Assembly: GCA_029379385.1 (NCBI GenBank)
Contig: CM055618.1
Span: 4,288,134 to 4,352,133, forward strand
Direction of reading: 5' to 3'
Length of the DNA: 64,000 nt
DNA from: Quillaja saponaria
Taxonomy: Eukaryota; Streptophyta; Magnoliopsida; Fabales; Quillajaceae
The notes below the pieces were generated by a model, which had not been told where the DNA came from, ran no database searches, and saw nothing but the letters and a program-made list of their open reading frames with translations. Shown piece after piece: positions 4,157 to 56,399 of this stretch. The number at the start of each line of letters is the position of its first letter. Position 1 is the first letter of the stretch. Made by a program: the position numbers and the translations under genes.

Positions 4157-6327
4157 TGTTATAACCTGATGATCCAACTTACGTGTTAGGAGGTTTTATA
4201 GAAATTTTTGTGATTATAATAATAGTTCTTTTCGAATTACATTTAAGTAAGAAATTTTTTATATTATATTTATATATATGTATGTTTAAGTAAATTAAGG
4301 TGCATGTGTACATAACAAGTGCAAATTAAGGGTTGATATAGCTATCTATCTATATATATTGAAATATAAGCAAAAAGGGGAATAGATATTTGAGCCACTA
4401 ATTTATTTTTACTTAAAACCAACACCACTCAATGTTATTATTTTAATTCACTGCCTTTATTTTTCACCAACAGGTTGACCAACTCAAGTATTGCTACATT
4501 TTGCCTTGCTTTATTTTCTTTCTGTTAGTGAGCAAATGGTTGTGGCTAGTTGAGAAGGTTTCTTGTTGGCACCATGTTCCTTTCTTTGGTGAATTTCCTT
4601 GCTCTTTTCTTTTGGTAGTCTGTGAAATTGGAAGTAGGAGGTAGTTTGAGAGCTAAAATTCAACTCAGTCGCCTGCAGTACCAGCTGGGAGGGGGGGGGG
4701 GGGGGGGGGGGGGGAGGGGGGTTTGGCTCTCTTATTGGGTTTGTGGTACACTTATCCTTCCTTCTTTTGTTGCTGCGGGTGTGTGTGGTTTGAGGGAGCA
4801 GATTGTTGTTGGAGATTTCACCAACGGGCTAAGAAAAGCCACACTTAGTTGGCTGGAAATTTTCCTTGCTCTGCTGTGAGTTATCATCCTCGTAGCTTAG
4901 TTGATTTTCTTAGTTTCCAGCTGCTTGTTCATGTTTTCTTTTTTTGTGTGTGATTGCCATGAGAAAGGAAGCCTGGAGGAAGATTTAATTTGAGCAGATG
5001 CTTATACTTTATGGAGTGCCCTGTTTCGGTAATTTGTGGATGAAATATTGAAGGGGACAACAAATCTATTTCTAGTTGCTGTTGCTGTTGGTACCTTTGA
5101 GTGGCTAAAAGATGTTATTTGGTTGATTGAAGTAGTGATGGGGTTCACCTTTAAAAGAAGTTAAATGGCTGGTTGTGGAAAATAGGGAGCTTAACTTGGT
5201 TGCCAATTTTCCTTGTATGATCAAATTGAGAATGATCTCATTACAAGATGAATTAGGAATATAAATAAGTGAAAAGTTAAATGCAAGTATCAAAAGTTGG
5301 AATTGAAAACATGTTAATATTTAAAAGTTTGATTTAAGTTTAATAACAAGGTAAATTAAAATTAATAATTGGCATAAGACAAATTGTAAAAGTTAAAGAA
5401 ATTTGTTAGCATACGTATGCTTAAATATAGATATGAATAAGGAAAGTAAGTAAATATATATATATATATACCTATAGTAGGTTGTTATATAAAATTTAAT
5501 AGAATTGAGTTTTCAAAGATTATATTAAGTTGTTTATATTAATTCAGGAATCGTAGGATTACCTTTGAAAGAAATAGCGTTAATAACTTATGAATTGGTG
5601 ATTTTCAACTTCGGATCCTGTCGAGGGCATTCCGACACCTTCGCAAACTAGACGGATGAACGAACCATGTCCTTAAACTTGTGAGTGAATTATGTGCTTT
5701 ATGGTTACCATATTATTGTGTGCAATTATGTGTATATTTTAATTGATGCGATATAATAAAATTAAGCAAATGAGTTATTTCAATGATTTAATTGAATGAT
5801 ATGTTTGATATTGAATGTGATTGATAAGGGCCAACAACGTGAAATTTTTCTGAGAAATGGTTTTCATTTTTGAAATTAAATTCTCGGTGCACCTAGGATA
5901 TTTGAATTTGATAGTTGATATGAGTTATTCTCACTCTTTCCTTTGTGGTTGTTTTCTTTAGTTTGTAGGAAAACTACCATTGGTCGAGACAAACATTTGC
6001 TACTTGCTGACTTTACTGCGACAAGGTATATCTCGAAGATCTCACACTTGGAGTGTATGGTCCGATATTTGCAATTGCTTTAGGTGTTAAGTATTAGTAT
6101 TGAACATACATCGCAATCACTATGGTGATTACATGTTTTGTTAGGAGCAGAGCTACTCTGTATATTTTGAAATTATATTTACTGTTGATGTTGTAAACAG
6201 GTTGTTTGTATATATTATTGGTATGTTCCACCGTACGGGTAACCCCTGCCAGTATTTTCGGTAACTTGAGTATTCAGGGTTACAGGGGTATGGACACCCA
6301 TTCCCCCGGTCATTTGAGGGTGTGACA
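4157..6327 (+). mobile_element. 5' LTR (2,171 bp) of a nested Ty3/gypsy element
   Basis: It starts TGTTATAACCTGATGATCC and ends GGGTGTGACA, giving canonical TG...CA ends, and is followed by a tRNA-Met-like primer site. The same start recurs at 10789 after a purine tract, so the two are paired LTRs. It interrupts Athila integrase sequence; the five bases before it are AAATT. It contains a long G homopolymer (about 4691-4721), (AT)n near 5457-5472, and no convincing gene. Related but diverged LTRs of this superfamily recur throughout the window. Confidence 0.85.
4688..4721 (+). repeat. Poly-G tract in the 5' LTR
   Basis: The tract is about 30 G residues with one A interruption. The homologous site in the 3' LTR (11955-11971) is also a G run but shorter. 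Such tracts can form G-quadruplexes and are prone to length change and sequencing error. Confidence 0.85.
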
Positions 6328-8164: not shown

Positions 8165-8906
8165 GTTTTCTAATGTTTTTCCTAAAGGGTTGCACCCGAT
8201 CGGGAGATTGAGTTATGCATTGAGTTGTTACCCGGTACTCAACTAATTTCTATTCCCCTTATAGAATTGTTCCTAGTGAGCTAGTGGAACTTAAGGTGCA
8301 ATACAATATTTACTAGATAAGGGATTCATTCGTCCCAGTTGATCTCCTTGGACTGCTTCTATTTTATTTGTTAAAAAAAAGGATGGCTCGTTTAGACTGT
8401 GTATCAATTACCGGCAGTTGAATAAGGTCACAGTTAAAAACAAGTATCCTCTTCCCAGAATTGATGACTTATTTGATTAGTTGTAGGGAGCTCAATGCTT
8501 TTCAAAAATTGATCTTTGTTTAGGGTATCACTAGCTTTGAATTAAAAAGGAAGATATTTCAAATACTGCTTTTCGTACTCGATATGGACACTATGAATTT
8601 TTGGTTATGTCTTTCGGGCTTACTAATGCTCCTACAATGTTCATGGATCTGATGAATCGGGTGTTTAAGTCTTTCTTGGATCAATTCATTATTGTTTTCA
8701 TTGACGACATTCTGGTATACTCTCTAAGTGAGGAGGAGCATGAGCAATATCTTTGTATTGTATTGCAAACACTTAGGGAAAATAAGCTTTATGCTAAATT
8801 CTGTAAGTGTCAATTTTGGTTAAATTGGGTGACTTTTCTTAGACATATGATTTCTAAGGAAGGAATTTGTGTAGACCCTAGAAAAATAGAAGCAGTTCAG
8901 AATTGA
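8165..8906 (+). pseudogene. Ty3/gypsy reverse transcriptase, broken
   Basis: The fingers and palm are readable from about 8330 with stops ([22 protein letters not shown] split by frames; KIDL near 8505). Frame 8601-8906 holds [19 protein letters not shown] and the catalytic box FIDD (residues 33-36 of that frame, near 8697-8708), followed by the thumb. At least three in-frame stops occur between 8330 and 8600, so the element cannot make an active enzyme. Confidence 0.8.
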
Positions 8907-9049
8907 CCTCGACCTACACATGTTTCTGAAATTTGAAGTTTTCTGTGCTTAGCCAAGTACTACGGGAAATTTGTGGAGATTTTTTCTCGTATCGCTACTC
9001 CTTTGACTCGACTAACTCAGAAAGAAGATAAGTTTTCACGGTTCAAGAC

Positions 9050-9480
9050 TTGTGAAAAAAGCTTTCAAAAATTGAAAACTTGTTTGACTTCAGCTCTTGT
9101 TCTTGCACTTCCCTAAACTACGAGTAAGTATATGGTGTTTTGTGATGCTTCTTGTATTTTAATGCAAGATGGGAAGACAGCATATGCTTCCAGACAGCTG
9201 AAAAAGCATGAGGTGAACTACCCTACTCATGATCTTAAGATGGTAGCAGTAATTTTTGCATTAAAAATATGGAGACATTACTTGTATGGTGGGACTTTTG
9301 AGATTTTCATGGATCACAAAAGTCTTAAATATATCTTTAATTAGAAGGAGTTGAATTTGAGGCAGCACAGATGGATTAAGTTACTGGAAGATTATGATTG
9401 TTCGATTTCTTATCATCCAGGTAAACTAAATGTGGTTGCCAATGCTCTGAGTAGGAAGTCTATGGGTAGTTTATCATACT
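9050..9480 (+). pseudogene. Ty3/gypsy RNase H, broken
   Basis: Frame 9132-9344 starts in the first catalytic region (FCDAS) and includes the [20 protein letters not shown] block with the second acidic position substituted, then [14 protein letters not shown] with its aspartate. After a stop, frame 9351-9599 continues (LRQHRWIKLLEDYDCSISYH, NVVANALSRK). The domain removes the RNA template during cDNA synthesis. Here it is split by stops. Confidence 0.75.
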
Positions 9481-10265
9481 TGTCAGGTGTGCATACTCAG
9501 GTGCCACAAGATTTGGAATTGAAAAGGAAGATTCTTGAAGTAGCACATTGTTCATCATATGTCATGCATCCTGGTTCTTCTAAATGTATAAGGATTTAAA
9601 AAAAATTTACTGGTGGAAGGGTATCAAGAAAGATGTTGCTGATTTTTTTTCTAAGTGCTTGGTATGTCAACAGGTGAAAGCTGAACATCAGAGGTCGGCA
9701 AGGATGTTACAAAAGCTGGATTTTCCAGAGTGGAAGTGGGAAAAGGTTACTATGGACCTCGTATCAGGACTTCCTAAGACTTTTAGGGGTTTTGATTCTA
9801 TTTGGGTGATTGTCGATCGTTTGACAAAGTCCACACATTTTCTTCTAGTAAAGAATACTTACTCAGCACACCAGTATGTGAAGTTGTATTTGGAGGAGAT
9901 TGTTTCATTACATGGAGTACCAATCTCTATTATTTCTAATCGAGTTGATCAATTCACTGCTAAGTTCTGGAAATCTTTTCAGGAGGCTCTTGGTACTCAA
10001 TTGCTATTTAATACAGCTTTTCACCCTCAAACGAATAGGCAATCCAAGAGAACAATACAAACTTTGGAGGATATGTTGTGAGCTTGTGTGATGGATTTTG
10101 AAGGTAGTTGGGATCAGCATCTTCCATTAATGGAGTTTGCTTATAATATCATAGTAGCATTCGGATGGCGCCATTTGAAGCATTGTATGGTAGAAAGTGT
10201 CAATCTCCTGTTGATTGGTTTGAGATAGGTGACCATCAGTTGTTGGGCCAGAACTGATTCAAGAT
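9480..10265 (+). pseudogene. Ty3/gypsy integrase, catalytic residues lost
   Basis: The zinc-binding part is split between the end of frame 9351-9599 and the start of frame 9584-10081 ([12 protein letters not shown]). The catalytic core has the first aspartate ([10 protein letters not shown]). The second, expected in S-D-R-D, reads [12 protein letters not shown], and the glutamate expected in Q-S-E-R-T reads [13 protein letters not shown]. Two of the three DDE residues are therefore substituted, and a stop follows at 10079. The element could not integrate with its own enzyme. Confidence 0.8.
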
Positions 10266-10268
10266 GCT

Positions 10269-10720
10269 GTGGAGAAGGTTCAGGTGATTCATGATAAATT
10301 ACGGATAGCTCAAAGTCAACAGAAATCGTATGCTGATAAGTGTAGGAGACAGTTAGAATTTGAAGTAGGGGATCAAGTGTTCCTAAAGATTTCTCCTTTT
10401 TGGGGCACTATGAGATTTGGTAAGAAAAGTAAGCTAAGCTCAAAATTCATTAATCCTTTTCAAATCCTGGTATCTCATGTGTCGATGCTTCGTAAATATT
10501 TGCCAGATGAATCTCATATTTTAAGAATTCAAGAGGTGCAAGTTGACAAGGACTTGACGTGCGAGAAGCAACCAATGGAAATTATAAACAAGTCTGTAAA
10601 CTTTGATCGAAGGTTATTCCTTCGGTAAAAGTTTTATGGTAGCATCATGGAGAGCAAGAAACCACTTGGGAATCCTAGAGTGAAATGAAACGATGTTATC
10701 CATAATTATTTGAATAATCC
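10269..10720 (+). pseudogene. Integrase C-terminus and chromodomain-like tail with internal deletion
   Basis: Frame 10269-10628 reads QKSYADKCRRQLEFEVGDQV, then GKKSKLSSKFINPFQIL, the C-terminal module of chromovirus integrases. It then jumps to VSHVSMLRKYLPDESHILRI. The related fragment at 40354-40539 retains roughly two dozen residues at that point, so this copy has a small in-frame deletion. The chromodomain-like end (W-HHGEQETTWES) near 10640-10680 is interrupted by stops. Chromodomains steer insertion to heterochromatin. This tail suggests a chromovirus such as the Tekay/Del group, but I cannot fix the lineage. Confidence 0.65.
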
Positions 10721-10788: not shown

Positions 10789-11096
10789 TGTTATAACCTG
10801 ATGATCCAACGTACATGTTTGGAGGTTTTATAGAAATTTTCACAATTATATAAGTAATAGTTCTTTTCAAATTAGATTCAAATTATATATATATATATAT
10901 ATATATTTATGAAAGTGGGATGAAATACAAGCAAAAAGGGGAATAGATATTTGAGCCACTAATTTATTTATACTTAAAACCAACACCACTCAATGAAATT
11001 ATTTTAATTCATTGCCTTTTATTCTTCACCAACAGCTTGACCGACCCAAGTATTGTTCCATTTTGCCATGCTTTCTTTTCTTTCTGTTAGTGAGTG

Positions 11097-11213
11097 AATG
11101 GTTGTGGCTGGTTGAGAAGGTTACTTGTTGGCACCATCATGTTCCTTTCTTTGGTGAATGGTTGTGGCTGGTTGAGAAGGTTTCTTGTTGGCACCATGTT
11201 CCTTTCTTTGGTG
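11097..11213 (+). repeat. 60-bp tandem duplication in the 3' LTR
   Basis: Two units starting gaatggttgtggctggttga (11097 and 11157) differ by a few bases. The 5' LTR has one unit near 4531-4590, so the duplication arose after insertion. Confidence 0.85.
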
Positions 11214-11500
11214 AATTTTCTTGCTCTTTTCTTTTGGTAGTTTGTGAAATTGGAAGTAGGAGGAAGTTTGAAAGATGAAATTCAGCTCAATCAAGGCAGT
11301 ACTATGTCACGGTCTTGGAAATTCCAACTCTCCCGTGCGGCACTTAGTCACTCAAGCCCCGTGCAAGAATGCTAAGTCAGCCTAACTCGAACTCAAGTGA
11401 GAAGGAAAGCACACAAGAGAATCGTAAGAAAAGAACTTCTTTATTGAATGCTTGAATTGCTTACAATTTCTGGATGCCTTCCAAATGAAGTTCCTAGGCC

Positions 11501-11508
11501 TATTTATA
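11501..11508 (-). promoter_or_regulatory. TATA box of the solo LTR
   Basis: The minus strand reads TATAAATAGG. An AATAAA poly(A) signal lies 56 bp downstream and the HSE-like array upstream, giving a coherent U3-R layout. Confidence 0.6.
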
Positions 11509-11676
11509 CTATTCCACCTCCTCAACCGACGGTGGAGATTGATTACATCCAACGGCTTATAATAGCCATCTAGAACTCTCCTACAAAATATCTAGATATT
11601 TATTCAATTCCAAGAAGTATCTAGACCTCCTAGAATTATGTACATTATTCTAGAGCATTCCACACCTTTTTGAACC

Positions 11677-11849
11677 TTCCAGGATCTTCTAGGATGTTCT
11701 ACAACCTTGTAGAACCTTCTAGAATGTTCTAGAGTCTTCCACATCCTTCTGGACCCTTCCAGAACCTTCTTGAATCTTCTAGAACCTTCTAGACCCTTCT
11801 AGAACCTTCTAGTACCTTCTGGAACCTTCTAGAACCTCCTGGATTCTTC
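11677..11849 (-). promoter_or_regulatory. Heat-shock-element-like array, 10-bp period
   Basis: TTC recurs at exact 10-bp steps from 11677 to 11847. Sixteen of eighteen steps are TTC, the exceptions being 11707 and 11837, and the twelve from 11717 to 11827 are unbroken. Between them GAA lies at the alternating 5-bp phase, giving perfect TTCnnGAA dyads at 11717, 11757, 11767, 11777, 11797, 11817 and 11827. This is the alternating nGAAnnTTCn arrangement bound by heat-shock factor trimers. On the minus strand the array lies about 170 bp upstream of the TATA box. Function is inferred; a simple minisatellite is the alternative. Confidence 0.65.
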
Positions 11850-13499
11850 TAGGATGCTCCACGAACTTGTACGAATGCACCACACAAACCTCCCAATCAT
11901 TGCCTAAGTGGCGCCATGTAGGCAACGATTCAGCGGGATATGACAACTAGCTCTGGGGGGGGGGGGGGGGGTTTGGCTCTCTTATTGGGTTTGTAGTACA
12001 CTCATCCTTCCTTCTTTTGTTGCTGCGGGTGTGTGTGATTTGAGGGAGCAGATTGTTGCTGGAGATTTTAGCAATGGGCTGAGAAAAGCCAGACTTATTT
12101 GGCTGGAAATTTTCCTTGCTCTGCAGTGAGTTATCATCCTCGTAGCTTAGTTGATTTTCTTAGTTTCCAGCTGCTTGTTCTAGTTTTCTTTTTGTGTGTG
12201 ATTGCCATGAGAAAGGAAGCCTGGAGGAAGATTTAATTTGAGAAGATGCTTATACTTTATGGAGTGCCCTGTTTCGGTCATTTGTGGATGAAATATTGAA
12301 GGGGACAACAAATCTATTTCTGGTTGCTTTTGCTGTCAATACCTTTGAGTGGCTAAAAGATGTGATTTGGTTGGTTGAAGTAGTGATGGGGTTCACCTTA
12401 AAAGAAGTTAAATGGCTGGTTGTGGAAATAGGGAGCTTAACTTGGTTGCCAAATTTCCTTGTGTGTGGTGATACATCATGGTCACGACTGTAAAAGGACA
12501 AGCCGTGAACTGCACATGACAAATTTCAACAATTATATTAAGTTGTTTATATTAATTTAGGAATCGTAGGATTAACTTTGAAAGAAATAGCATTAATAAC
12601 TTAGTTTCGGATCAGGTCGAGGATATTCCTACACCTTCCCAGACTAGATGGACAGACGAAGCACGTCCTTAAACTTGTGAGTGAATTATGTGTTTTATGG
12701 TTACCAAATTATTGTGTGCAATTATGTCTATATTTGAATTGATACGTCATAATAAAAATTATACAAATGAGTTATTTTAGTGATTTAATTGAATTATGTG
12801 TTTGATATTGAATGTGATTGATAAAGGCCAACAACATGAAATTTTTCTGAGAAATAGTTTTCATTTTTGAAATTAAAGTCCAGGTGCACCTAGGATATTT
12901 GAATTTGATAGTTGATATGAGTTACTTTGATTCTGACAATTATTTTGAAAATAATTAGGAGTGCTCAGCCCCAATGGAATGGAATTGTGTACGGAGATTT
13001 ACTTGTGCGGGCGAGTGAATGCCCAATGGGGGAGATATTGTTGTGCAGGGTTGAGTTACTCATTGGCCCTTTGTTAAATTGGCTATTAATTGTTTGGTTG
13101 TTTGAATGGTTTGATTGATACGTTGAAATTCGTGATCGAAGTGAATTGTGATTGTATGAGAATTGTAACTACATATGTGCATAAGTAATTTAAATATGAA
13201 TTAAAACTATGATATTTGTGTTGTGTGATGTTGGTACCCTTAGGGTACATAATTTGCTCACTGAATCTTTGTGGCTCACTCTTTCCTTTGTGGTTATTTT
13301 CTTTAGTTTCCAGGAAAACTACCATTGGTCATGACAAACATTTGTTACTTGCCGACTCTACTATGGCAAGGTATATCTCGGAGATCGCACACTTGGAGAG
13401 TATGGGGCGATACTTTGATCACTATAAAAAATCTTTATTAGTCTCCTCAGTATTAGGAGTGGAGAAATTTCTTTTTGCAGGAGTATTAGTTTGAGAGGT

Positions 13500-13900
13500 C
13501 ATAACGCATTTTCCTTTAGGATCCCTGCAAAAATTCTCTAGTTAGAAAGTCAGGCAAAGAATTAGATTCTCCTTTAATAAATTCTATATCAAATTCAAAA
13601 ACAGAAAAGGATTCCTTGCCATCTAGCAAATATCTGTTTAGATGCTATTTTTTTTAACATCTTTAAGAAGGATATCCTTAGCAGACTTGCAATCTATTCT
13701 TAATAAGAACTTTTTATTTAAAAGGTCAGATTCAAACTTAGCAATGCACATATCTATAGATAATATTTTCTTTTTTATAGTAGAATAATTTTATTGTGCA
13801 CCCTTCCAAGTTCCTGAAGTAAATCTAACCAATTGCTCTTTATTAGCAATTTTTTGTTTAAGAATTCCTCCATATCCTATTTCAGAAGCATCTGTTTCGA
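13500..13900 (-). pseudogene. EPRV-A RNase H
   Basis: The broken minus-strand frames match the better-preserved homologue at 52628-52843 (motifs FTSGTWKGAQ and LLRIDCKSAKDIL), a caulimovirid RNase H following RT. Stops near 13640-13800 interrupt it. A short local duplication near 13900-13935 (repeat of 'ctattttaaaagc') adds a frame change relative to copy D. Confidence 0.65.
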
Positions 13901-14864
13901 CTATTTTAAAAGCTCTGTTCCGACTATTTTAAAAGCATATGGTTGAGGAATACAAAGACATGGGAGTTCTTGAACTCTTTGTTTTATCCTCTTAACTGCT
14001 TCTATAAAGTCATTGTTCAATTCTGGAGGATTCTTTTTTAAACGTGCAAATAATAATTTGCAATCTAAGGCTAAATCTTTGTAAAATTCACCTACATAAT
14101 TCAGACTTCCTAAGAATCTCTGCAGTTGTTGTTTTTCTCTTATTTCATTAGGGAATTTATCAGCAAATTGTATGGCTTTATCAATAGGTATAATAGAACC
14201 TTTATGAATATTGTGTCCTAAAAAACAAATAGCAGTTTGAAATATTTTTACCTTTTTTGCAGAAACTGCTAACCCCGCCTTCATGACAGTATTCAAGAAT
14301 ATATTGAGATGTTTAAAATGTTTCTCAATTTGAAGGGAAAAAAACTAAAACATCATCAATATAAACAATTATAAATTCATGATAAGAATTAAAAATATCA
14401 TTCATAATATTTTGAAATTCAGATTGAGCATTTTTTTAATCTAAATGGCATAACATTCCATTCATAATGCCCAAAAGGTACAGTAAAGACAGTTTTGTAC
14501 CTATCCTGCTCAGCTATTTGAATTTGCCAATATCTAGATTTCATATCAAATTTGGAAAAGATTTTGGCATCATAAAGTCTATTAAGTAAGTCCTTTTTAT
14601 TAGGGATAGGATATCTAATTCATCTTAAAGTTTTATTCAAGGGTTTGTAAGTAATTACTAACTTTGGGACTCCTCTTTCTAGTTTAGTTGCATTTTCAAC
14701 ATAAAATGCAGGCAGCTCCAAGGACTGTAACTTTTTCTAATTAATCCCTTTTTTAGTAATTCTTCAATTTCTTCCTTACAGATTTCTAGGTGTTTAGGAC
14801 CCATAGCTATTGGTCTAGCCTTAGTGGGTATTTGTTTTTCTAAGAAATCGGGTTCATAAGGCAA
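13901..14864 (-). pseudogene. EPRV-A reverse transcriptase
   Basis: Frame 14864-14679 holds the RT N-terminal segment (PIAMGPKHLEICKEEIEELL). The catalytic YIDD is encoded at 14352-14363 within a FIIVYIDDVLVF context. Frame 14296-13901 carries the connection region (QRFLGSLNYVGEFYKDL). Frameshifts at about 14330, 14430 and 14690 separate the parts. The enzyme would copy pregenomic RNA into DNA. This copy cannot. Confidence 0.8.
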
Positions 14865-14866
14865 TT

Positions 14867-15560
14867 CTATAATATGCTATTTTCTATTCCAAAAGGCATT
14901 AGGAATCTCAGCACATATAGTTTGTTCAATTTTATATTAAAATTTATTAATTTCATCTTGAAGCTTAGAGATTTTAATTGTTGCTCAATTCTCTTATATT
15001 CTATCTCTTCCTTTAGAGACATAAGAAAATTTTCTTTTCTTTTAATGGTATCTTTCATAAGATTAATTTCATGCATTTGTGGTTCTTCAACAAATTCAAA
15101 TTTAATTTGTCTACCCTTTATTACAGTTTCCACTCCTGATTCGTCAATTGTAGAAATAAGGAATAACATGTGTAGAAAATGGTTTCCTAGAATTACTCCC
15201 TGGGCTAATCCTTTAACTAAAACAAAGGGTACAGGAAAACAAATCTTGTTGTTACAGACTGCCGCATTAGACAATTTGTAGTCTATAATTAGATGATTTC
15301 CATCCACAGCATGGAGTATTTGTGTAGTTTTCTGAAAATACTTGGATGGAACTAATCTTTCATTAATGCAATTTAAATCTGCTCCTAAATCTATTAAGGC
15401 AACAGAGAGAAAGTTGAATTCATTATTTACCACTATAGGTATTTTAGTAAACCTTTTTTGTGCTATGACTAAATCTACAGCACAAATCCATCATTCTGGA
15501 TCATTAAGGATATTTACAGTTCCTTCCTTGGGTTCTTGAATCATTATACTTGTTCCTCTG
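14867..15560 (-). pseudogene. EPRV-A aspartic protease and PR-RT linker
   Basis: Frame 15433-14867 opens with the protease. DLGAD at residues 15-19 (15391-15377) is the active-site region, and the flap-side motif GVILGNHFL follows. The C-terminal 80 residues form a lysine/glutamate-rich linker with heptad character leading into RT. Copy D has DSGA at the same place, so D-x-G-A is conserved between copies. The upstream part lies in another frame up to about 15560. Confidence 0.7.
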
Positions 15561-16195
15561 TTTTTAGGTTCTGGATTTTTTGTTTCTTTTGATGATTCCC
15601 ATAGAAGATCTTGGAACTGGTCTTCATCTGACTCTTCTAGAATAGAAACTCTCTGTTTTAGAGTTTTTACTTCTTCCTTAATTTCATTAATTTCTAATTT
15701 TAAATCAATAATAGTTGGTTCTTTTAATGAAGAGTTAATAGCTTTTACTCTTTCAATTTTATTCTTAAAGGAATAAGAATCATCTTTTATGCTTCCTTTT
15801 ATTATTGAACTTTTACCCTTGTTACATTTGAATATACTTTTCTAACTGTATTCTTCTTTCTTCAGGATCTGCAATTTTATCAATTAAGTCTAAAATTAGA
15901 CTTTCTTCTTTTGACAAAACATTTATACTAAGGTTGTTTAATCATATAATTTTTAGGATACATTTGTCACAGTCATTATCATAACAACATTTTGATTTTT
16001 CAATTTTTTTTGACTCAGAGTTATATTCATTTTCTGACTCTTCTATACTCGAATCTGAATTATACTACTCTATTATAAAAGCATTCAATTGTTCCTTTTC
16101 CTCATCAGAGTCTTCTAATAAGATTTGACATAAGGATTTCTTTAAACCTTCATCAATTTGAAGAACATTTATTTTCTTTTTAACCTTGCATTTAT
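15560..16195 (-). pseudogene. EPRV-A acidic/coiled-coil linker between zinc finger and protease
   Basis: Minus-strand frames between the zinc finger and the protease are acidic and low in complexity (serine/glutamate-rich near 16020-16130). They include a heptad-like stretch near 15650-15735 (EINEIKEEVKTLKQRVSILE). A coiled coil in this place could aid capsid or polyprotein assembly. The frame is broken by several stops. Copies B and D have the same segment. Confidence 0.55.
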
Positions 16196-17330
16196 TTGGA
16201 AGTGACCTAGTTTTCCACACTTCTAACATATAGGAACCTTTTTATAATTAGTTTCCTTGAATAAGGGTTTCTTGTTGAATTCATAATAACCAGTTTTTGA
16301 CTTTTCATTCTTTTTATATTGTTTTCTCTTGTAAGGTTTATTAGAGAATTTCTTTTGAAACTTATGAGTCTTTCTAGACTGCTTAAATTGACCGCTTGTG
16401 GGGATCCAAATTGTTCACTAAAATTTCCTAAAGCTCTTTTCCCACTTAATTTCTCTTTGTCAATTTGTGTTTTTAGCCTAATATCATTACATAATGATAT
16501 TCCTTTTGACACGACCTCTGAAGCTAGTTCTCCATAGGCATAGCTATCGTATGGTATATTACCACCATGTTTATCTTTTAATTTGTTTATGATTTTATCA
16601 GCAAATAGAGTTGGGAGACCTGCTAAGAACTTTTCTTTCTAAAAGTCAGCTAGGCTATCTAGTCTCTGATAAACTCTAGATAAAAACACATCTTTATACC
16701 ACTGGAAGTGAGATCGATCTGGACACCTAAGATTAATCAGTTGTTCATGTGATCTATCTAATCTAAGCATATTAGCTCCTACAAAGTGGTTTATAATAGT
16801 ATAGATCAGAGTATTAACTATGTCAGTTATTAAATTTCCATTTTCTTGTTTTACAGAATTTAAGATCTATTGTGTTGGTGGAAATCCCACCATCCTAAAA
16901 GTTGCCCTGTAAACCCACTGATTATGGCTAAGGCTATTTCCCTGTTAGTGTTACCATTGGACCTACATGCTACAGCATACATTAGCATGTGTTTAGTTGT
17001 TTGGAGGATTTGGTATTCTATCAATCCATCAATATTCCATTCTACTATGGACTTACCGTTAAACTGAACCTTATCTTGAATAGCATTATCTTCATATTGA
17101 AGATCTAACGGTGAGGGTCTTGGGTAGTACATTTTAGATTGGGCAGTTAGAGTTGTTTTATTCCAATGAAGTTTATTAACTTCTAAATGTGAGACTTTTC
17201 TTGACTTTTCTTGATTTTGACTTAGCATGTTGACACTTTTCTTTTCAGATATGTTCAAGTTTTGTAACCTGTTGACTAATTCATCCACAAAGTTTTTATC
17301 ATTGATTTTTAGAATCTTTTCTGAATTTCA
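16196..17330 (-). pseudogene. EPRV-A coat protein with broken zinc finger
   Basis: Frame 17288-16860 contains the coat N-terminal and core part (EVNKLHWNKTT; NIDGLIEYQILQTTKHMLMY; IALAIISGFTGQLLGWWDFH). Further coat sequence follows in shifted frames to 16512-16207, ending in a basic region. The C-x2-C-x4-H-x4-C finger expected near 16190-16235 is damaged: a stop follows the first Cys and one base is missing before the last. The homologous finger in copy D is intact. The protein would package the genome. Confidence 0.75.
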
Positions 17331-17465
17331 GATTGATTTCTGAGGGAGGCTTCATCATGATAGGATAGAATCTTAGCATATTCTTTACTAGAAGATCCCT
17401 GATACTTGAGGAATTATTTGTTGGGAAGACTTTTCCTGAATAAGAAAATTTTCTATCCTTGAGGA

Positions 17466-18937
17466 CTATTTTCCTAAGGATTGAAGAAATAAGTTTGTAT
17501 AATTATTTTGGTTGGATATTTCAACCATGGAACATGTCGTGGATGCTTCTTTTGGTATACCTGAATAAGGATTATCTATTATTTCACCGTTAGATTTTTT
17601 GATTGAAAGCGTTGACTCTGGAGGATGAACTGCTACTATATTCTTTCCTTCCCTGGTGAAAAAGTTTTGATAAGTAGTTTCTAGAACATTAACGAACTTA
17701 GGGTCTTCAAAATTAGGCCAATCTTTTTTGTGGAATCTAAAGGCTCGTTCAAGCCACTTAAAGAATGCTGACTTTTTATGATATTTTTCCATGTACTGCT
17801 TATGCGTAGAGATCAAGTAATCTCTTTCTTTTTTAATAAAAGTTGTATAAAACCATTTATGTTTAATGGTAAATGGGTGTAACGACTCTGTAGAGGATAA
17901 CATGCATACGATGTATCCCATTTTAGAGGGTGTTGGTAAATTATCTTTTGAGGGTGATTTTAACCCTAATTTTGAAGGTGTTTCAACTTGGTACTGAGGG
18001 TGACTAACTTGATCTTTGGATTTTATAATTCCCTTAATTACCTGTCTCCTGTCAATTTTAGTGGTAGGAATTGAAGACGTAGACCTCCTTCTAGAAGACT
18101 CTCTTAAATTAAGTTTAATCTTTCTGTTTGTAGAGAATTTTATCTCCACATCTCCATCAGTGTATTCAATTACCGATTCTAGGTCTCTAGACTCTATTTT
18201 CATAGAGGGAATTCCTTGGTCTATTTTCCAAGTTTCAGGAAGATTTATTTGATCCCAAGTGATTGTCTTAGGCACCACCATATTTGTTTTAGCTAGATTG
18301 GCTATAAAAAGTGTGGTCTCACCTCTTTTTGACTTAATCTTAGCATTAGGAGCTATAGTGTTCATTACCTTGTAATAAATCCTATATATTAGGACTACAT
18401 TTTCAGATCTTTGTAACATATCAAAACCACGAGACTGAATATTTAGAGTTAATACATTCATTATGTTTTGATCAGTTAAGGATATTGAAAAATTAAGATA
18501 ATAGCTAAATAAGATAGGACCATCACAAAGACTCAATTCTATACGTCCTAATAAGGAATCTGAAAACTTATTATGTCTTGTATCCCTAACACTTTATGAG
18601 CAGAGGTATTTAGTCCAAATCTGGTCAAAGGTTTTAACGCCATTTGAACCATTCTTATATGGAGATATTTAAATTTCTTTTTATGTTCTTCTATTAATTT
18701 AGAAGAGAAGAGTTTAAATGTATCTTGACTCTTCCATAGTTTTAATTATATAGGTTTTAGACTAAAACTACCTTTCCTATAAATTTGTCTATCAAAAGTT
18801 TGAGGAAGATTCCAGTTTTGAAGTTCTTTTTCTATATTTTCTACTAGAATAACTTCTTTATTATTTCTAGACAAGTTATCAGAACTAGAACCAGAAGAAT
18901 TAACAGAGTTTGAAAATCTTCTTAAAATACCAGCCAT
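17466..18937 (-). pseudogene. EPRV-A movement protein and MP-CP linker
   Basis: The start codon is at 18937 (MAGILRRFSNSVNSSG). The first 63 codons (18937-18746) end at a stop. The remainder is open from 18536 to 17466 (356 codons), with sequence homologous to copy E between. The block ending near 17960 is the caulimovirid movement protein, which makes plasmodesmata passable. It is followed by a charged helical region (FFKWLERAFRFHKKDW) that links to the coat protein. The assignment rests on position after the primer site and on overall resemblance to 30K-type movement proteins of this family. Confidence 0.7.
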
Positions 18938-19126
18938 TTTCTCTTTGAGTCAAAGGGGCAAACTGTCAAAGGACTTACTCAACCCTCAACGTCCTTCACT
19001 CAACTGGACTACACAGGTTATCAGATGCCTCGATTTCGTTTCCTGGGTTTAACTCCTCGACTTTGAAGATTAATGAACAGATAGTTTAAGATTATTATCA
19101 CACTCTACCAACCTTTAAGGTTACTA

Positions 19127-19138
19127 GCTCTGATACCA
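19127..19138 (-). promoter_or_regulatory. EPRV-A tRNA-Met primer-binding site
   Basis: The minus strand reads TGGTATCAGAGC, an exact match to the Caulimoviridae minus-strand primer site, about 190 bases before the movement-protein start. The same site is seen at 60724-60736 in copy E and at 28486-28497 in the duplicated contig end. Confidence 0.9.
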
Positions 19139-19249
19139 TAAGGGGAAGCTAGCGCACACAGATAAGAAACAAAATACATAGAGCATATGCAAAAAGTTGC
19201 AATAAGATTCAGCAGCCTGGAAACTCAAATACTATATATCCATGACTCT

Positions 19250-20388
19250 TTAACACATTACAAGTATGACAATTAAAATATTGTTGATTCAAAAATAAAA
19301 CCCAGACTCAACTATTAAACATCAAATGATCACTGAAAATATCAATAGTGGTTCCCTGTACGATGGAATATGCCGTAATATGTGTAACAACCTGTTTATA
19401 AAATTGACAGTATCTCATAGTATCATAGTATACATATGAGCTCTGCTCCAAACAAAACATGAAAATCACTATGGTAAATTCAATATATTTGACAACAATG
19501 CATAACACCCTAAGTGACTGCAGGTATCGTCCTTTACACTCCAAGTGTGCAATTTCCAAGATATACCTTGTTGTAGCAGAATCGGCAGGTACCAATTTCG
19601 TTCATGACCAACAGTGATTTCCTAGAAACTAAAAAAAATTCAACCACAAAGGAAAGAACGAGTCACAAGAACTCAGTGAGCAAATAATGTACCCTAAGGA
19701 TACCGGCATCACACAACACATATATTATAGCTTAAATTCATATTTGAATTACTTACGCACTTACGTAATTACAATTCTCATATGATCTCAGTTCACGAAT
19801 GTCAACATATCATTCAAACAACCAAACAAACAACAAACAATTTAACAAACAAAGGGCCAACAAGTAATTAACCCTACACAATAATATCTCCCCCACTAGG
19901 CCTTTATGCCCATGCACAACAAATTAATTCTCTGTACACAATCTATCCCACTGGGGCTAAGCACTCCATTTGTTTTTAAAATAATTGTCATAATTAGAAT
20001 AACTCATATCAAATGTCAAATGTCAAATATCCAAGGTGCACCTGGATTTTTAATTTCGAACATAAAATCATTTCTCAGAAAATTTCACTTTGTTGGCCCT
20101 TATCAAACACATATAATTCATTTAAATCACTAAAATAACTTATTTGCTTATTTCTCATTATAACGCATCGATTCAAATGTACAAATAATTGTACACAATA
20201 ATCTGGTAACTATAAAGCACATAATTCACTCACAAGTTTAAGGACGTGGTTCGTCAGTCCGTCTAGTCTGTGAAGGTGTCGAAATGTCCTCAGCACGATC
20301 CAAAACTGAAAATTATAAATTCATACATTACTCTTAGTAATCATTGCATTATTAATTCTAGGATTCCTAAATCTTTTGTATATATTCC
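19250..20388 (-). mobile_element. LTR fragment C, minus strand
   Basis: The reverse complement matches the 3' half of the gypsy LTR at about 5525-6280, for example the blocks around 'ccttaaacttgtgagtgaat', 'aggtgcac' and the 'acaaggtatatc' tract. Both ends are missing: the low-coordinate end merges into the viral leader, and the high-coordinate end stops where another LTR starts at 20389. No gene is present; the short frame at 19308-19595 has no recognisable content. Confidence 0.7.
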
Positions 20389-21892
20389 TGTGATAACCTG
20401 ATAACGAAAAATCGAGTTTAGATGCAATGGTTAAATTTATGTTATCAAATAAACAATTTAATTAAATAAAAGTATAGTTAAATATGTTATATTTTGATAC
20501 CTTAGTGTAACCCGAGTATACGTTTTGGGATTTTTTTGGTTTCGCAAAGTAAATAACATTTTTACCAAATATATCCAAGTGAGTGACTAATTAATGTATA
20601 TGTAAAAATACATTAAGATTTAATCTCTACCACAAGCCAATTTAAACAGGTGAACAATACAATTAAAACATATGTGGGTATATAACTAGATAAATACATA
20701 TATATATAACATGTTTTAAGACATGTGACTTTGACTTGGATTTTCTTTCTTTCTTTATGTTAGTCTTTCTCCTCTCTTTGACAAAGCCTTGCTTCCTTCT
20801 TCCTCCCATTGCCATAGCTTTAATTCTTGAAGATTCTTCATCCCTCTCGGCCACTTCAGCTTCCATCCAATAGCTTCACCTCCCTGTCTTGCTTTTGGTT
20901 GTGAATTTCCAACTCTTTACCACTGTCTGTTGGGAATTCCTCCTCCTTCTCTTTTGTTCAAGGACCTGATTACTTTTTGCTTTGCTTTTCCATGTTGAAT
21001 TGAGCACCATTGCTGCAAATTTTTTTTCCATTCATGCTAGCCGTTCATGAGCAGCCCCTCTAGCCATGAAAATTCCCTTGATCGTGAGCTGTTTCAGCCA
21101 TCCCCTGCTATATATCTTGTTTCCTTCTTCTTTTGCTAGCATATGTATGTGGTATAATCTAAAGGCAGCCATTGGTAGATAAGGCAGGAACCTTAACTGT
21201 ACCTTTCAAAAAAAAAATTTGTTGGTATTTGCTCATGCCTTGTTGAATTATGATAATGATATATTGATAAAATGTACAGTTATGTAAGTCTCATGGTGAG
21301 TATATATATAGATACTTGCTCATAAGCTAGAACAAAAATATGCATATAAGGTAGTTGATAAAATATTTACAAGAAAATAATTGTAACTTAATGAGTAAAA
21401 ATTTGTTGGATTGATATCGAAAAGTGACAACTTAAATTCTTGATTAATTCTAAATCACTAATACAATCTTGAATTAGGAGTAATGTTAGTGAATTAGTAT
21501 TGACATGAGGAGTATGAATTAGAGCTTGAAAGTGGTGGAAAATGAGAGTTAACTGGGTTTTGAAGTGGGTGCCAGGGCAGATTCATGGATGAAAGAAATC
21601 CTGGGTTTTAGGTGCTTTTGGAGCTGAATTAAATTAAGATTCCAAGAGAGAATGTGTAGCTTAGGGTCTTGGTTGGAATTAGCATAGGACCTCTAAGTAA
21701 AAGTTGTTCTTAGCATACTAAAGAGAAAATTTGGAGTTGTGCAGGTTTTAATTCCTTATTATGAATACATAGGAGGTGGTGAAAATTAGGATATGATTTT
21801 CGGGTATTAATTGAACCTGTTCTAGTGTAACTTGCTTTAGAGGGTCCTACAAGATGAATTAGGAGAAGAGTGCTGAAAATGAAATATTCCTA
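20389..21892 (+). mobile_element. LTR G, 5' half, plus strand
   Basis: It starts TGTGATAACCTGATAACG, the same LTR family as 25896 onward, and runs in parallel with that LTR to about 21892. There the sequence switches to the opposite strand of another member. Relative to the second reading of this locus it lacks about 85 bp at 21671. There is no gene; the basic 67-codon minus-strand frame at 20663-20866 is low-complexity LTR sequence. Confidence 0.7.
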
Positions 21893-23793
21893 ACATCTTG
21901 AAATACTAGTCAATTACACTAAAACAAGTTCAATCGATATCTGAAAATCATAACCTTGATTTCCACCACCTCCAAAGTATTAATAATAAAGAATTAAAAC
22001 CCTGAACATCTCCAGATTTTCTCTTTAGTATGCTAGGAACAACTTTTACTGAGAGGTTCTACTCTAATTTCTACTCTAATTTCTACCATAAACCCAACAA
22101 AGTCTCCCGAACTAACTAAAGTCACTAAAAATTCTGCATGGACCTAGCCTCAGTCCAGCAGTTCTAACAATCAATACACTTGGAATCAGATTACAAAATT
22201 TTGTAGACATCATCTCAAGATCCTAAGCTACATTTTATATTTTGAACTCTTAATTTAATTCAGTCCTGAAGACACTTGAAATACTACATTTCTTGCACCC
22301 ACGAAATCTGCCCCCTGCACCCTTCAAAACCACTTAACTCTCTTTAGCTTAACACATTAACCAACCCTTTTCTCCTGTTATGAACTTTTTATTCAAACTC
22401 CACAACAACCAACCAACAAGAAATTAAATCCACCAAGTTCTTCTACTCATTCCATTACAAGTTTCATTTAGGCATTTTAACAAACACCTTAAGAGCATAA
22501 TTAATTTCATTTTATGTGTATATGTATATATACATACACCAAGAAACCAATACAATTCCATCAATTTCCATGTTAACTATATTCCAAATATTAAATTCAA
22601 GTTGAACTAATTACTTATTCATCAAAAACTTGAAATATACAATTCTAACATTAACATATCCAAATTCCAAAACTTCCTCTTCTATTACCACCCTTTTTCG
22701 TTACTTTCAAATTCTAATTCATCTTCCTAACTTCTTTAAATTTTAACTCTCAGTCAATACAAAAAGGAAGTAACTTTAATTCTAAGAAATAAAATTCACT
22801 TAGTTGAAAAAGGGAACTTGAAAATACCAAAATCAGAGGATATCCACCATGGAAGGTGGTGGTTGTACTTGTTAATACTGTCATGAAAAGGTTTGTGGCT
22901 GCCAGCAGTTGGAGCTGCTGCCTCCCTCAATAACGACTACCTACTCAAGGCTAGAAATATACCACAGTTGGAGAAGGATGCATAGGAAGAAGCTGATGGC
23001 AGCACGGCTTGGATAGAGGTTGAACAAAGTCAAGTTAGCAGCAAAAGGAAAAGAACTCAGCTGCTGAAAATATCCAAAGAAAATTTGAATCTAAGTAAAT
23101 CAACAAAGTGAACTTTAAATTATCTATATATCCAATTATTTTCTTATTTTAATTTGTTTCATGGAATTTTATGATTTACATAATCATGATAATTTACGTA
23201 CAACATCCTAAAATGTAGGGCTGTGCACGGTTCGGTTCGGTTCGGGTAGTGGTAAATTTTTGAACCAAATCGAATATTTTAGATAATAAAATTTAAGAAC
23301 GGAGCCAAACTGAAAATAGACATAACCCAAAATTACCCAAACCAAAAAAATATGAGTAGTTTGGATCGGGTATTCGGTTACCTGAATTTATTAATATTCA
23401 CTAAAATTAATTTGAAAATTATATTTTTTTTGTTTTTGAATCTTATATTTTTTTAATTCATTAGTTATTATAAAATAAAATTACAAAAAACATAATATAT
23501 CAACATATTCAACACAAATAAAAATATAAAATTATAAATTAACACAACAATACATTAAAAAAAATTATATATTTTAATTTTCAGGTAACCACAAGTACCC
23601 ATGTGCACTCAACCTCACTACCCGTAACCGAACCGAAAATAATGGTATTAAATTTAACTACCCGAACCCAACTAAATGAGTAAAATACCTAAATTTAATC
23701 GAACCGAATTACCGGTTTTGTTCGGGTATTCAGTTTTTTCTGGGTTTCTTGCACTGCCCTACTAAAATGTACGCCAGACATTGAGTTATAATA
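21893..23793 (-). mobile_element. LTR H, minus strand, 5' part, carrying a MITE
   Basis: The reverse complement starts TATTATAACTCAATG at 23793 and matches the LTR start of this superfamily, including 'ttttaggatgttgtacg', which recurs at 40825. It continues to 21893, where it meets LTR G tail-to-tail. It contains the MITE at 23216-23761. With LTR G it makes a diverged inverted repeat (arms roughly 21480-21840 and 21910-22360). Confidence 0.65.
23216..23761. mobile_element. hAT-type MITE (546 bp)
   Basis: The ends are TAGGGCTGTGCA...TGCACTGCCCTA, near-perfect 12-bp inverted repeats. It is flanked by a perfect 8-bp duplication CTAAAATG (23208-23215 and 23762-23769). Subterminal ggttcggttcgg-type repeats appear on both sides. 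An 8-bp target duplication and TAGGG/CCCTA-type ends indicate hAT superfamily mobilisation. There is no coding capacity. The second reading is at 32682-33227. Confidence 0.9.
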
Positions 23794-24772
23794 GTCATAT
23801 CTCCCAGGTAATTGTGAAACTATCTAAAAGGGGTAAATTTTGAATAAGTTCATGAAATTTAATATTTATATACTTTTTGTAATTAAAAGGTTATAACCTA
23901 AAAAATTAACAAAGTACGTAATATTGGGGAAAATTTAATTGCAACTCCAGAAATATGATTGAGCCAATGACTCATATGAACGCAAGGAGTGACAAATGAA
24001 ATTGGTAAATGGTGAGTGGTTAATTACTACCCTTTGGTTACTAGATTGTTATGTGTATTTGAATTGATGTGTTACATAGAAAATAAGCATGGGTAGTGTT
24101 TCATTGAGTTATGTGAATTATATTTGATGGTTGAAATTATTTGTGCTTATTAAGGTCAACAAAAAAAAATTTTCTCCAAAATGATTTTTACTTTTGAAAT
24201 TGAAATCCAAGTGCACCTAACTGATTGGATATGAAATATTATGATTCTGACAATTGTTTTAAAAGAATTGAGTGCTCAGTCTTGGTCGGATGGATTGTGC
24301 ACGGAGAATTAACCTGTTGTGCAGGTGCGTAAATGCCTAGTAGGGGGAAATACTATTGTGCGGGGTTGATTTTTAGTAACAGGAGTTTAGTGTATGGTGT
24401 CGCTGAGCTCGTGATCTGTTGACAAAATACGGCAAGGTATTTTCCAAGATCTCAGACTCAGACCTAGTATTTGTCTTGTTTATAATATGGAAAGAGTGGA
24501 GCTCCTTACTTTGTTTGTGTTGTTGTTGTGTAAGAATAAGAGTTTATAGGTTTGTATTTTAAGGCATGTTCCATATTGTAGGAACCTCTGCCGAAATTTT
24601 CTGTAAATTGTTATTTATTTAGTGTTTAAAGTTAACTTATGTTTTATACCATTTACTTTTATTCTTTAGATTAGTCAAGAGTTTTATTTGTTTTAATTAT
24701 TTGAAGTTGAAGGTTACGGAAGTTTAATTATCTAATCTTCCAGTCAGTCATGTCTCCATGAGGGGTGTGATA
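23794..24772 (+). mobile_element. LTR 3' part, plus strand (probably LTR G continued)
   Basis: This matches the last third of the complete LTR at 35360-39175, with a shared course from 'ggtgagtggttaat' through 'gagtgctcag' and 'gcatgttccatatt'. It ends gaggggtgtgata, after which viral sequence begins at once. No coding content is seen. Confidence 0.7.
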
Positions 24773-25895
24773 GTTACCTTCAAAAGATTCTCTTCATCTT
24801 TTTACAAATAAGCATAAATGGTTTTACACTATTTTTAGTGAAAAGGAAAGAAATTATTGGATTTCTATGTATAAGCAGTATATGAAAAAAGTCCATAAAA
24901 AACCTGGATTCTTTAATTGGCTTGAAAGAGCATTTAGATATCACAAAAAGGAATGACCTAATTTTGATAATCCTCAATTCCTAAATGTTATAGAAGTTGC
25001 TTACCAAAATTTCTTTACAAAAGAAGAAAAACATAATTCCTCAATTTATCCCCCAGAATCCTCCTTTTCTGTTAAAAAATCTAGATGATAAATTTTGGCA
25101 AGTCCTTACTCTACTATGCCAAAAGAAGCATCTACTTCAAATGCTATGGTTGAAATATCCAACTAGAATAACTATACAAATTTGTTCCTATAATTTTTAG
25201 GAAAACAATCTTTTAGGATAAAAAATTTTCTTATATAAGAAAAATCTTCGCAGCAAATCTTTTCATAAGCTTCAGGATCCTCCTCGAAGGAAACACCAAA
25301 ATAGATCCACTGATAATGAAGCCTCCTCCTAAAGTAAATCTGAAATTTAGAAAAGCTACTAAAGTTAATGATAAAACTTTTATTGATGAATTAGTATCTA
25401 GATTACAAACTTTAAATCTGTCTAAAAAGAATAATAAAAGTGTTAATGTGTTGAGTCAAAACAAACCAGATTCATTTGAAAATAAAGAATTTTATCTGGA
25501 AGTTAATAAACTTCATTGGAATAAAAAATGCCTACTGCCCCATCAAAAATATATTACCCTAGACCATCACCTCTGGAACTTCAATATAAAAATAATGCCA
25601 TCCAGGATAGGGTACAATTTTATGGAAAGTCAATAGGTGAATAGAATATTGATAGTTTGGTAGAATATCAAATTCTTTAAACCACTAAACACATACTTAT
25701 GTATGCGGTAGCATGTAGATCAAATGGAAATCAAGACCATGAAATAGCTTTAGCTATTTTAAGTGGATTCACTGGTCAGTTACTTAGATGGTGGAATTTC
25801 CATTTGTTAGAAATCCCTAAACAAGAGATTTTAAACTCAATAAAACAAGAAAATGAAAATTTGGTTACTAATATAGCTAATACTCTAATCTATAC
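24773..25895 (+). pseudogene. EPRV-B, first part: MP-CP linker and coat protein core
   Basis: This plus-strand viral piece follows an LTR end directly. The broken frame at 24780-24960 reads HKWFYTIFSEKERNYW and FFNWLERAFRYHKK. Frames 25316-25636 and 25699-25920 hold the coat region (NLSKKNNKSVNVLSQNK; EVNKLHWNKK; MYAVACRSNGN; IALAILSGFTGQLLRWW). It is more diverged than copies A, D and E from one another. It is cut at 25895 by a solo LTR and resumes at 39181. The movement-protein part is absent. Confidence 0.75.
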
Positions 25896-28348: not shown

Positions 28349-28448
28349 NNNNNNNNNNNNNNNNNNNNNNNNNNNNNNNNNNNNNNNNNNNNNNNNNNNN
28401 NNNNNNNNNNNNNNNNNNNNNNNNNNNNNNNNNNNNNNNNNNNNNNNN
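28349..28448. other. Assembly gap, exactly 100 N
   Basis: One hundred Ns are a common placeholder for a gap of unknown size. The sequence after the gap repeats the sequence from 19090. Confidence 0.99.
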
Positions 28449-31400: not shown

Positions 31401-32681
31401 TCGATATCTGAAAATCATAACCTTGATTTCCACCACCTCCAAAGTATTAATAATAAAGAATTAAAACCCTGAACATCTCCAGATTTTCTCTTTAGTATGC
31501 TAGGAACAACTTTTACTGAGAGGTTCTACTCTAATTTCTACTCTAATTTCTACCATAAACCCAACAAAGTCTCCCGAACTAACTAAAGTCACTAAAAATT
31601 CTGCATGGACCTAGCCTCAGTCCAGCAGTTCTAACAATCAATACACTTGGAATCAGATTACAAAATTTTGTAGACATCATCTCAAGATCCTAAGCTACAT
31701 TTTATATTTTGAACTCTTAATTTAATTCAGTCCTGAAGACACTTGAAATACTACATTTCTTGCACCCACGAAATCTGCCCCCTGCACCCTTCAAAACCAC
31801 TTAACTCTCTTTAGCTTAACACATTAACCAACCCTTTTCTCCTGTTATGAACTTTTATTCAAACTCCACAACAACCAACCAACAAGAAATTAAATCCACC
31901 AAGTTCTTCTACTCATTCCATTACAAGTTTCATTTAGGCATTTTAACAAACACCTTAAGAGCATAATTAATTTCATTTTATGTGTATATGTATATATACA
32001 TACACCAAGAAACCAATACAATTCCATCAATTTCCATGTTAACTATATTCCAAATATTAAATTCAAGTTGAACTAATTACTTATTCATCAAAAACTTGAA
32101 ATATACAATTCTAACATTAACATATCCAAATTCCAAAACTTCCTCTTCTATTACCACCCTTTTTCGTTACTTTCAAATTCTAATTCATCTTCCTAACTTC
32201 TTTAAATTTTAACTCTCAGTCAATACAAAAAGGAAGTAACTTTAATTCTAAGAAATAAAATTCACTTAGTTGAAAAAGGGAACTTGAAAATACCAAAATC
32301 AGAGGATATCCACCATGGAAGGTGGTGGTTGTACTTGTTAATACTGTCATGAAAAGGTTTGTGGCTGCCAGCAGTTGGAGCTGCTGCCTCCCTCAATAAC
32401 GACTACCTACTCAAGGCTAGAAATATACCACAGTTGGAGAAGGATGCATAGGAAGAAGCTGATGGCAGCACGGCTTGGATAGAGGTTGAACAAAGTCAAG
32501 TTAGCAGCAAAAGGAAAAGAACTCAGCTGCTGAAAATATCCAAAGAAAATTTGAATCTAAGTAAATCAACAAAGTGAACTTTAAATTATCTATATATCCA
32601 ATTATTTTCTTATTTTAATTTGTTTCATGGAATTTTATGATTTACATAATCATGATAATTTACGTACAACATCCTAAAATG

Positions 32682-45311: not shown

Positions 45312-45376
45312 TATTCTTGTCTAATTAAATCACTGCCTCACGTATCTCATCAGCCCCAGGAAATTTACAAAGCAAA

Positions 45377-46585: not shown

Positions 46586-46589
46586 ATGT

Positions 46590-56300: not shown

Positions 56301-56399
56301 GGATCTATCTTAGCAGGTTCTTTACTAGAAGATCCTAAAGTCTGAGGAATTATTTGTTAGGATGACTTTTCCTTAATTAGAAAATTTTCTATCCTTGAG

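Follow-up and report, generated by a model that had tools for sequence, protein, structure and literature searches.

The window, a 64,000-nucleotide stretch of contig CM055618.1 of Quillaja saponaria, contains a solo long terminal repeat (LTR) whose U3 region carries a phased lattice of heat-shock elements (HSEs) of about 25 ten-bp units. As judged by its relatives in the genome, this LTR stems from a Ty3/gypsy chromovirus, in a subfamily that is mainly of the non-autonomous, gag-protease type. The family with such arrays looks built for activation in heat, which would amount to the strategy of ONSEN taken up by an unrelated lineage and with an unusually long array. The features of the LTR and its surroundings are compiled in Table 1.

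Table 1. Coordinates of the solo LTR, its array, and its insertion site in the window.
Feature	Position	Strand	Basis
Solo LTR, HSE-array Ty3/gypsy chromovirus family	11305..11945	- (sense = minus)	TG...CA ends, empty site, genomic matches
ACTA target-site duplication, left copy	11301..11304		sequence; empty paralogous site reads ACCA
ACTA target-site duplication, right copy	11946..11949		sequence
Outer gypsy repeat read as LTR, holds the solo LTR	10789..13415, ends approximate	+	window self-BLAST
Paralogous repeat, read as the outer element's partner LTR, empty site inside	4157..6259, ends approximate	+	self-BLAST
Empty (uninserted) paralogous target site GCAGTACCAGCT	4675..4686	+	comparison of paralogous repeats
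TATAAATA, core promoter	11501..11508	-	sequence
AATAAA, poly(A)-signal-like, begins 63 bp past the first base of TATAAATA	11440..11445	-	sequence
U3 array, ~25 ten-bp units (sense GGTTCTAGAA), TTC/GAA alternating every 5 bp as an HSE lattice	11625..11871	-	phase HMM and statistics
The 18 units of the preliminary description; no CG, 10 CHG cytosines	11677..11856	-	sequence
Autonomous-type part of the LTR (core promoter, R, U5)	11305..11582, switch approximate	-	identity to L036, mixed tree
Non-autonomous-type part of the LTR (including the array)	11583..11945	-	identity comparison with L036

The LTR has no coding capacity and features TG...CA ends, a target duplication, and an empty paralogous site, with no internal region between two LTRs. 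The TG...CA unit and the 4-bp duplication claimed in the preliminary description are both present, and its reading as a solo LTR is borne out by the empty site. The unit is an insertion because an uninserted paralogous site is present in the same window: the latter reads GCAGTACCAGCT, and the filled site reads GCAGTACTA–LTR–ACTAGCT. In the self-comparison of the window, the flanks of the solo LTR are 91–94% identical to the insertion-free copy; a second copy of the solo LTR was not found within the 64 kb, the empty site being found instead. ORFs for reverse transcriptase (RT) and integrase of the gypsy type lie between the two outer repeats (8541–10628), and the repeats are therefore interpreted as paired LTRs of a single outer element. 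The insertion of the solo LTR postdates the divergence of the two outer repeat copies, and in its position nested within the repeat of another retrotransposon it may be silenced. An IMG/VR scan with one stretch of the LTR returned 0 matches. One outer repeat copy bears a tandem duplication of ~57–60 bp that the other lacks (11094–11216 versus 4360–4670), and a 35-bp G-rich run (4687–4721) abuts the empty target site, with a G run also at the filled copy.

The array sits in U3, upstream of TATAAATA and AATAAA, and these two motifs were located on the minus strand in the order given in the preliminary description. TTC at exact 10-bp steps was counted again in 16 of 18 positions (11677–11847); GAA does occupy the alternate 5-bp phase, at eight places within this span—nine with 11672—and not at seven. 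The 10-bp array as such stands, but its length of 18 units does not: a cyclic phase HMM extends it to ~25 units, and after this extension its distance from the TATA box is ~117 bp in place of ~170 bp. HSF trimers bind inverted repeats of nGAAn (PMC8379338), and the HSE format proposed for the array lies far above chance in shuffles, other windows, and column permutations. With a relaxed module defined by at least two of three matching bases, the key G/C included, the LTR features a run of 23 alternating modules and, in addition, 10 perfect three-module HSEs; the respective maxima are 7 and 2 in 500 dinucleotide shuffles, and 5 and 1 in 194 other 641-bp windows of the sequence. Upon permutation of the unit columns with the period kept, 3 of 3000 trials reached the perfect count, 5 the one-mismatch count, and 15 the run. 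Periodicity alone is insufficient to explain the HSE lattice because the permuted columns rarely reach the observed values. The perfect runs comprise 7, 4, 4, and 3 modules, and the LTR hence has in its U3, ahead of the promoter, the high-affinity HSE of at least four neighboring modules that is expected of a heat-responsive LTR.

The promoter of ONSEN is free of CG and CHG methylation sites, a trait the window LTR lacks: the whole LTR contains 14 CG sites and 24 CHG cytosines. This difference from ONSEN may leave the window LTR more exposed to silencing. The CG count of the 18-unit part is 0, with 7.7 expected by composition and ~2.5 given the CG depletion of the window (observed/expected 0.33). 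This freedom from CG was considered as an ONSEN-like trait of the array and set aside as weak, the window being depleted of CG throughout.

The genome searched (351.8 Mb on 213 contigs) holds at least 41 matches to the window LTR, the best other copy being 99% identical. Copy numbers are lower bounds because the nucleotide searches score only the best 40 candidates—of 256 for the array-bearing LTR as query, of 202 for short-type matches, and of 48 for gag-protease. Five LTR pairs delimit full-length non-autonomous elements of 3.05–3.2 kb, with LTRs of 633–730 bp and an internal region of ~1.77 kb. This region contains a single ORF of 587 codons, open in three of the five copies, which in the only copy scanned against Pfam (L031) encodes gag and protease; relative to the autonomous element L036, the polymerase region is absent. 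The pairs L036 and L037 delimit elements of ~5.5 kb with 433-bp LTRs. The Pfam scan of L036 yielded gag, protease-RT, and RNaseH-integrase-chromodomain, and the frames of L037 are broken. In this one autonomous copy scanned, the order protease-RT-RNaseH-integrase with a chromodomain identifies a Ty3/gypsy chromovirus. It rules out membership in ONSEN/ATCOPIA78 or copia, in agreement with the earlier proposal of a family unrelated to ONSEN. Over query positions 211–641, the L036 LTR shares 87% identity with that of the window. The primer-binding stretch of the five non-autonomous elements is TGGTATCAGAGC, which we take to be of the initiator-methionine type; one base differs in L036 and L037. 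Exact 4-bp target duplications flank all seven full-length elements and an eighth pair on C11. The best 40 LTRs comprise 12 solo LTRs with exact 4-bp duplications, four truncated or diverged copies, and 24 in longer elements, to which an LTR was assigned if paired or beside a primer site or polypurine tract. The gag-protease region as query gave 48 matches in the genome. In protein comparisons, the highest identities at nearly complete coverage, within the 120 homologues listed for each, are 73% for integrase and 60% for gag-protease. Two gag-protease matches at C10:12401937-12406124 lie ~0.7 kb apart in the same orientation, and because this gap equals one LTR, they are perhaps tandem elements with a common LTR.

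Full-length relatives lacking the array had been named beforehand as evidence that would speak against a heat-responsive family; all seven relatives taken whole carry it, the array-bearing query favoring such copies. Five are non-autonomous with long arrays, and two are autonomous with 7.5 units and five perfect modules. Overall, the long-array (non-autonomous) LTRs span 17–31 units and the autonomous ones 7.5–8.1 (five LTRs of three elements), most often with five perfect modules. A perfect three-module HSE is present in 40 of 40 LTRs, the best of the 256 candidates found with the array-bearing query. These LTRs are not independent, as both LTRs of several elements are included and L039 duplicates L030. 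L039 is excluded from later analyses, and L038 and the LTR read as L042 (L048 on rereading) are excluded from the tree. Autonomous-type LTRs, some of them only ~80% identical to the query, were inspected in 14 cases at nine loci. In 13 of them the modules form a perfect run of three or longer, and in 12 one of four or longer, located at position 28; L073 has none. An array-less autonomous parent was not found among the autonomous LTRs measured (three elements) and the 14 inspected, at least six further short-type matches being unread.

The 20.4 kb of LTR sequence contain 271 perfect three-module HSEs, compared with a single one across 90 kb of flanking DNA and two across the other 63.4 kb of the window. 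Genome-wide, there are 69 perfect six-module and 346 perfect four-module positions, compared with 0 and 87 in the reversed control, overlapping matches being counted apart. Fifty of the 69 six-module positions were listed, and no fewer than 47 of these are in or directly beside the HSE-array family, a count that leaves out C6:21824802, C6:21824889, and C12:2943803. Twenty-eight are in LTRs already found, and 15 more are in 12 newly checked loci, every one of which also matches the LTR outside the array, nine of them in both non-array parts and L076 over only 46 bp. Four adjoin the family gag by position, with the LTR sequence unread: C3:24082600, C3:24085094, C6:16989484, and C11:11755811.

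The long arrays undergo fast changes in unit number, and their HSE phase is maintained. Of 10 LTR pairs compared, six have a length difference of a single 10-bp unit within the array: all five non-autonomous pairs (L031–L035, long arrays) and one of five autonomous pairs (C11:2690991-2696514). Some pairs show other small gaps, such as two of 1 bp in the array of L035. The K2P distance between the LTRs of one element ranges from 0.005 to 0.035 in seven pairs, with ages depending on the rate. The one-unit difference within single elements might arise in reverse transcription itself.

The window LTR is, by the pattern of its identities, a mosaic that combines a non-autonomous array with an autonomous core promoter, R, and U5. 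Compared with autonomous L036, it is identical at 59 of 75 positions upstream of the switch at ~11582 and at 70 of 72 just downstream. The autonomous-like stretch past the switch occurs in 8 of 17 long-array LTRs (68–70 of 72 identical), and the other nine have lower identity (59–62 of 72); farther downstream, all 17 are similar. In a tree of the downstream half, 14 short-array and 33 long-array LTRs are intermixed, and the starred branches force at least three changes. A single origin of the long-array LTRs is unsupported by this tree, the mosaics explaining the mixing. The direction of array change—expansion or contraction—is therefore unproved. Template switching between co-packaged RNAs would account for such mosaics.

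The array probably acts as an HSF-responsive enhancer in U3. This link to HSF and heat is proposed because of the analogy to ONSEN, whose LTR is bound by HSFA2 in vitro and whose activation requires HSFA1 (PMC3907296), and because more adjacent modules go with a stronger response: in PMC5059998, the number of adjacent nGAAn modules accompanies response strength, and four or more form a high-affinity HSE. Upon heat, host HSF trimers would be recruited to the phased lattice through binding of HSFA1/HSFA2, and the bound array would drive minus-strand transcription from TATAAATA. Full-length family members would be transcribed in heat and packaged, and the gag-protease copies would be copied in trans by the enzymes of autonomous relatives with a shorter U3 HSE cluster. 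Unit number would shift in 10-bp steps by slippage or unequal exchange, which preserves the HSE phase. Solo LTRs would stem from LTR–LTR recombination, each leaving behind a potential heat-responsive promoter. In this scheme, HSF binding, heat induction, and mobilization in trans are inferred, as would be any effect on neighboring DNA.

An arms race over array length is conceivable as an extension of this mechanism, though on balance doubtful. A gag-protease derivative without polymerase would have expanded an inherited five-module HSE to 17–31 units and, in heat, out-transcribed the autonomous relatives in the competition for their enzymes. Slippage would have supplied variation and repeated recombination the mosaics, and the derivative would have become the host's main source of perfect long HSEs. 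The host genome would thereby have gained a stock of heat-responsive promoters or of HSF sinks.

Selection on the HSE cores finds mixed, at most suggestive, evidence in these sequences. Differences between elements were counted on 11 disjoint pairs, drawn from the 126 that were usable among 351. Between elements, changes affect 66 of 1639 core and 79 of 1105 spacer positions (p = 0.0005); changes within elements, which postdate insertion, affect the core and the spacer alike (18 of 818 and 8 of 549), and an MK-like test gives p = 0.033 at small counts. The A/T core is constrained between elements (27 of 1106 versus 34 of 551 in the spacer, p = 0.0003) and shows no constraint after insertion (6 of 549 versus 3 of 278). 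The G/C core (G in GAA, C in TTC) changes between elements much like the spacer G/C (39 of 533 versus 45 of 554, p = 0.65) and after insertion, if anything, more (12 of 269 versus 5 of 271, p = 0.09). The G of GAA is the base that HSF reads most strictly, according to PMC8379338. Purifying selection across all HSE bases is unsupported, the G/C core being unprotected. The true core columns rank 16 of 210 among six-column sets and 7 of 90 at equal A/T content. Perfect cores number 743 of 1347, with 612 expected from mismatches shuffled within arrays, and 12 of 28 LTRs individually beat this shuffle (<0.05). Departures in the TTC–GAA linker comprise 239 transitions and 60 transversions, compared with 327 and 192 in the other linker. 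A TTC–GAA linker held pyrimidine–purine in line with the preference of HSF was considered and dropped, the between-pair counts of 29:5 versus 33:12 being not decisive.

These counts bear on an unlikely but not negligible alternative: the array as an ordinary minisatellite, arisen by slippage of the TTCTAGAA palindrome in the LTR, homogenized by slippage and devoid of a regulatory role. The unit-step length differences in 6 of 10 LTR pairs speak for it. It also agrees with a G/C core no better conserved than spacer G/C, with the mere 12 of 28 LTRs beating the mismatch shuffles—copies that are related—and with the unclear unevenness of departures from the unit over its columns (p = 0.07 for heterogeneity; for the TTC columns, p = 0.001 before any correction for register choice). 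However, the column permutation, at 3 of 3000, points to a unit that is specifically HSE-shaped. Moreover, 13 of the 14 autonomous LTRs with a short array retain a run of three or more perfect modules at a fixed place, some being only ~80% identical to the query, and the A/T core is constrained between elements but not within.

An array that binds HSF chiefly as a sink or decoy, or that answers to HSF signals from, for example, development or oxidative stress and is no heat promoter, is improbable. A sink would fit the clustering of the listed six-module positions in or beside the family (47 or more of 50), some in solo LTRs that have ceased to propagate; yet the array is placed upstream of the TATA box in U3, full-length copies included, and decoy activity alone would give the element no advantage. 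An HSF-independent action through DNA shape (nucleosome positioning or curvature) is scarcely credible: the period near the helical repeat and the phase kept by unit-step changes would agree with it, but neither the TTC/GAA alternation nor the conservation of a five-module HSE in short-array LTRs is predicted by it.

Among known systems, as described in the accessible portions of the papers cited, ONSEN/ATCOPIA78 of Arabidopsis resembles the Quillaja family in having HSEs in the LTR promoter, and its dependence on HSFA1/HSFA2 is measured. ONSEN belongs to Ty1/copia and features a cluster of four nGAAn modules in a promoter without CG/CHG, whereas the Quillaja LTR belongs to a Ty3/gypsy chromovirus, features ~25 units, CG/CHG, and a 4-bp duplication, and its heat response is predicted. 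The strong ONSEN-type HSE arose through duplication of a proto-HSE (PMC3907296, PMC5059998). The Brassicaceae COPIA families TERESTRA, COPIA37, and ROMANIAT5 gained their LTR HSEs independently; their largest cluster is one of six nGAAn modules in TERESTRA of A. lyrata, not a long phased array as in the Quillaja LTR (PMC5059998). Helitrons of Caenorhabditis spread HSEs as well, with HSF-1-bound motifs consistent with tandem overlapping HSEs; they are nematode DNA transposons with measured binding, unlike the Quillaja LTR, for which binding is predicted (PMC6927752). TCN3 and TCN12 of Cryptococcus carry putative HSEs in their LTRs and mobilize at 37 °C, but they are fungal and have one or two HSEs (PMC12810828). 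The plant TR-GAG elements, whose LTRs flank a single gag ORF, rely on autonomous relatives and transpose in Arabidopsis ddm1; the Quillaja element differs by the protease in its ORF, as seen in L031, and by the expanded HSE array in its LTR (PMC8704663). The LTRs of Cryptomeria and PHRE1/2 of moso bamboo are likewise Ty3/gypsy and respond to heat; in the accessible text an HSE array is not described, and the PHRE LTRs are tied to TCP, DOF, and GATA factors (PMC9780303, PMC8656106).

Known from these sources, therefore, are the capture of HSEs by Brassicaceae copia LTRs, tandem-HSE-like motifs in nematode Helitrons, and HSEs in Cryptococcus LTRs. The literature search, which covered subscription journals thinly and leaves absence from print unproved, yielded no case of a long HSE array in a Ty3/gypsy chromovirus of plants. 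Apparently new, relative to the literature searched, are the ~25-unit phased array in such an element, its shorter form in autonomous relatives, and the share of 47 of 50 listed six-module positions. Within that literature, the best-documented cases of heat activation by HSEs in LTRs are Brassicaceae copia elements. The Quillaja family would represent the same solution in a Ty3/gypsy chromovirus, a lineage unrelated to them; its array exceeds theirs several times in length, is common to autonomous and non-autonomous partners, and changes by single phased units. The copies of the family naturally range from 7 to 31 units and thus offer a ready-made series for relating HSE number to heat output, and this series bears on whether a transposon outbids its helper through promoter strength. 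The family also raises the question whether one family supplies most long HSEs of a plant genome.

The window contains further repeats. A tandem duplication of ~9.4 kb spans 19090–37813 (19090–28348 and 28449–37813); its larger right part is 99.7% identical and its left part 96.9%, as if conversion or a second event had hit one part. Pararetrovirus-like endogenous blocks that repeat one another at ~88% identity are located at 13613–18593, 52607–57130, and 60715–63061, with coding split over several ORFs; a minus-strand ORF of one block (17466–18593) carries the movement-protein domain PF01107. Probable LINE remnants occupy the minus strand at 43459–47043, with zf-RVT at the Pfam cut-off and DUF4283 below it.
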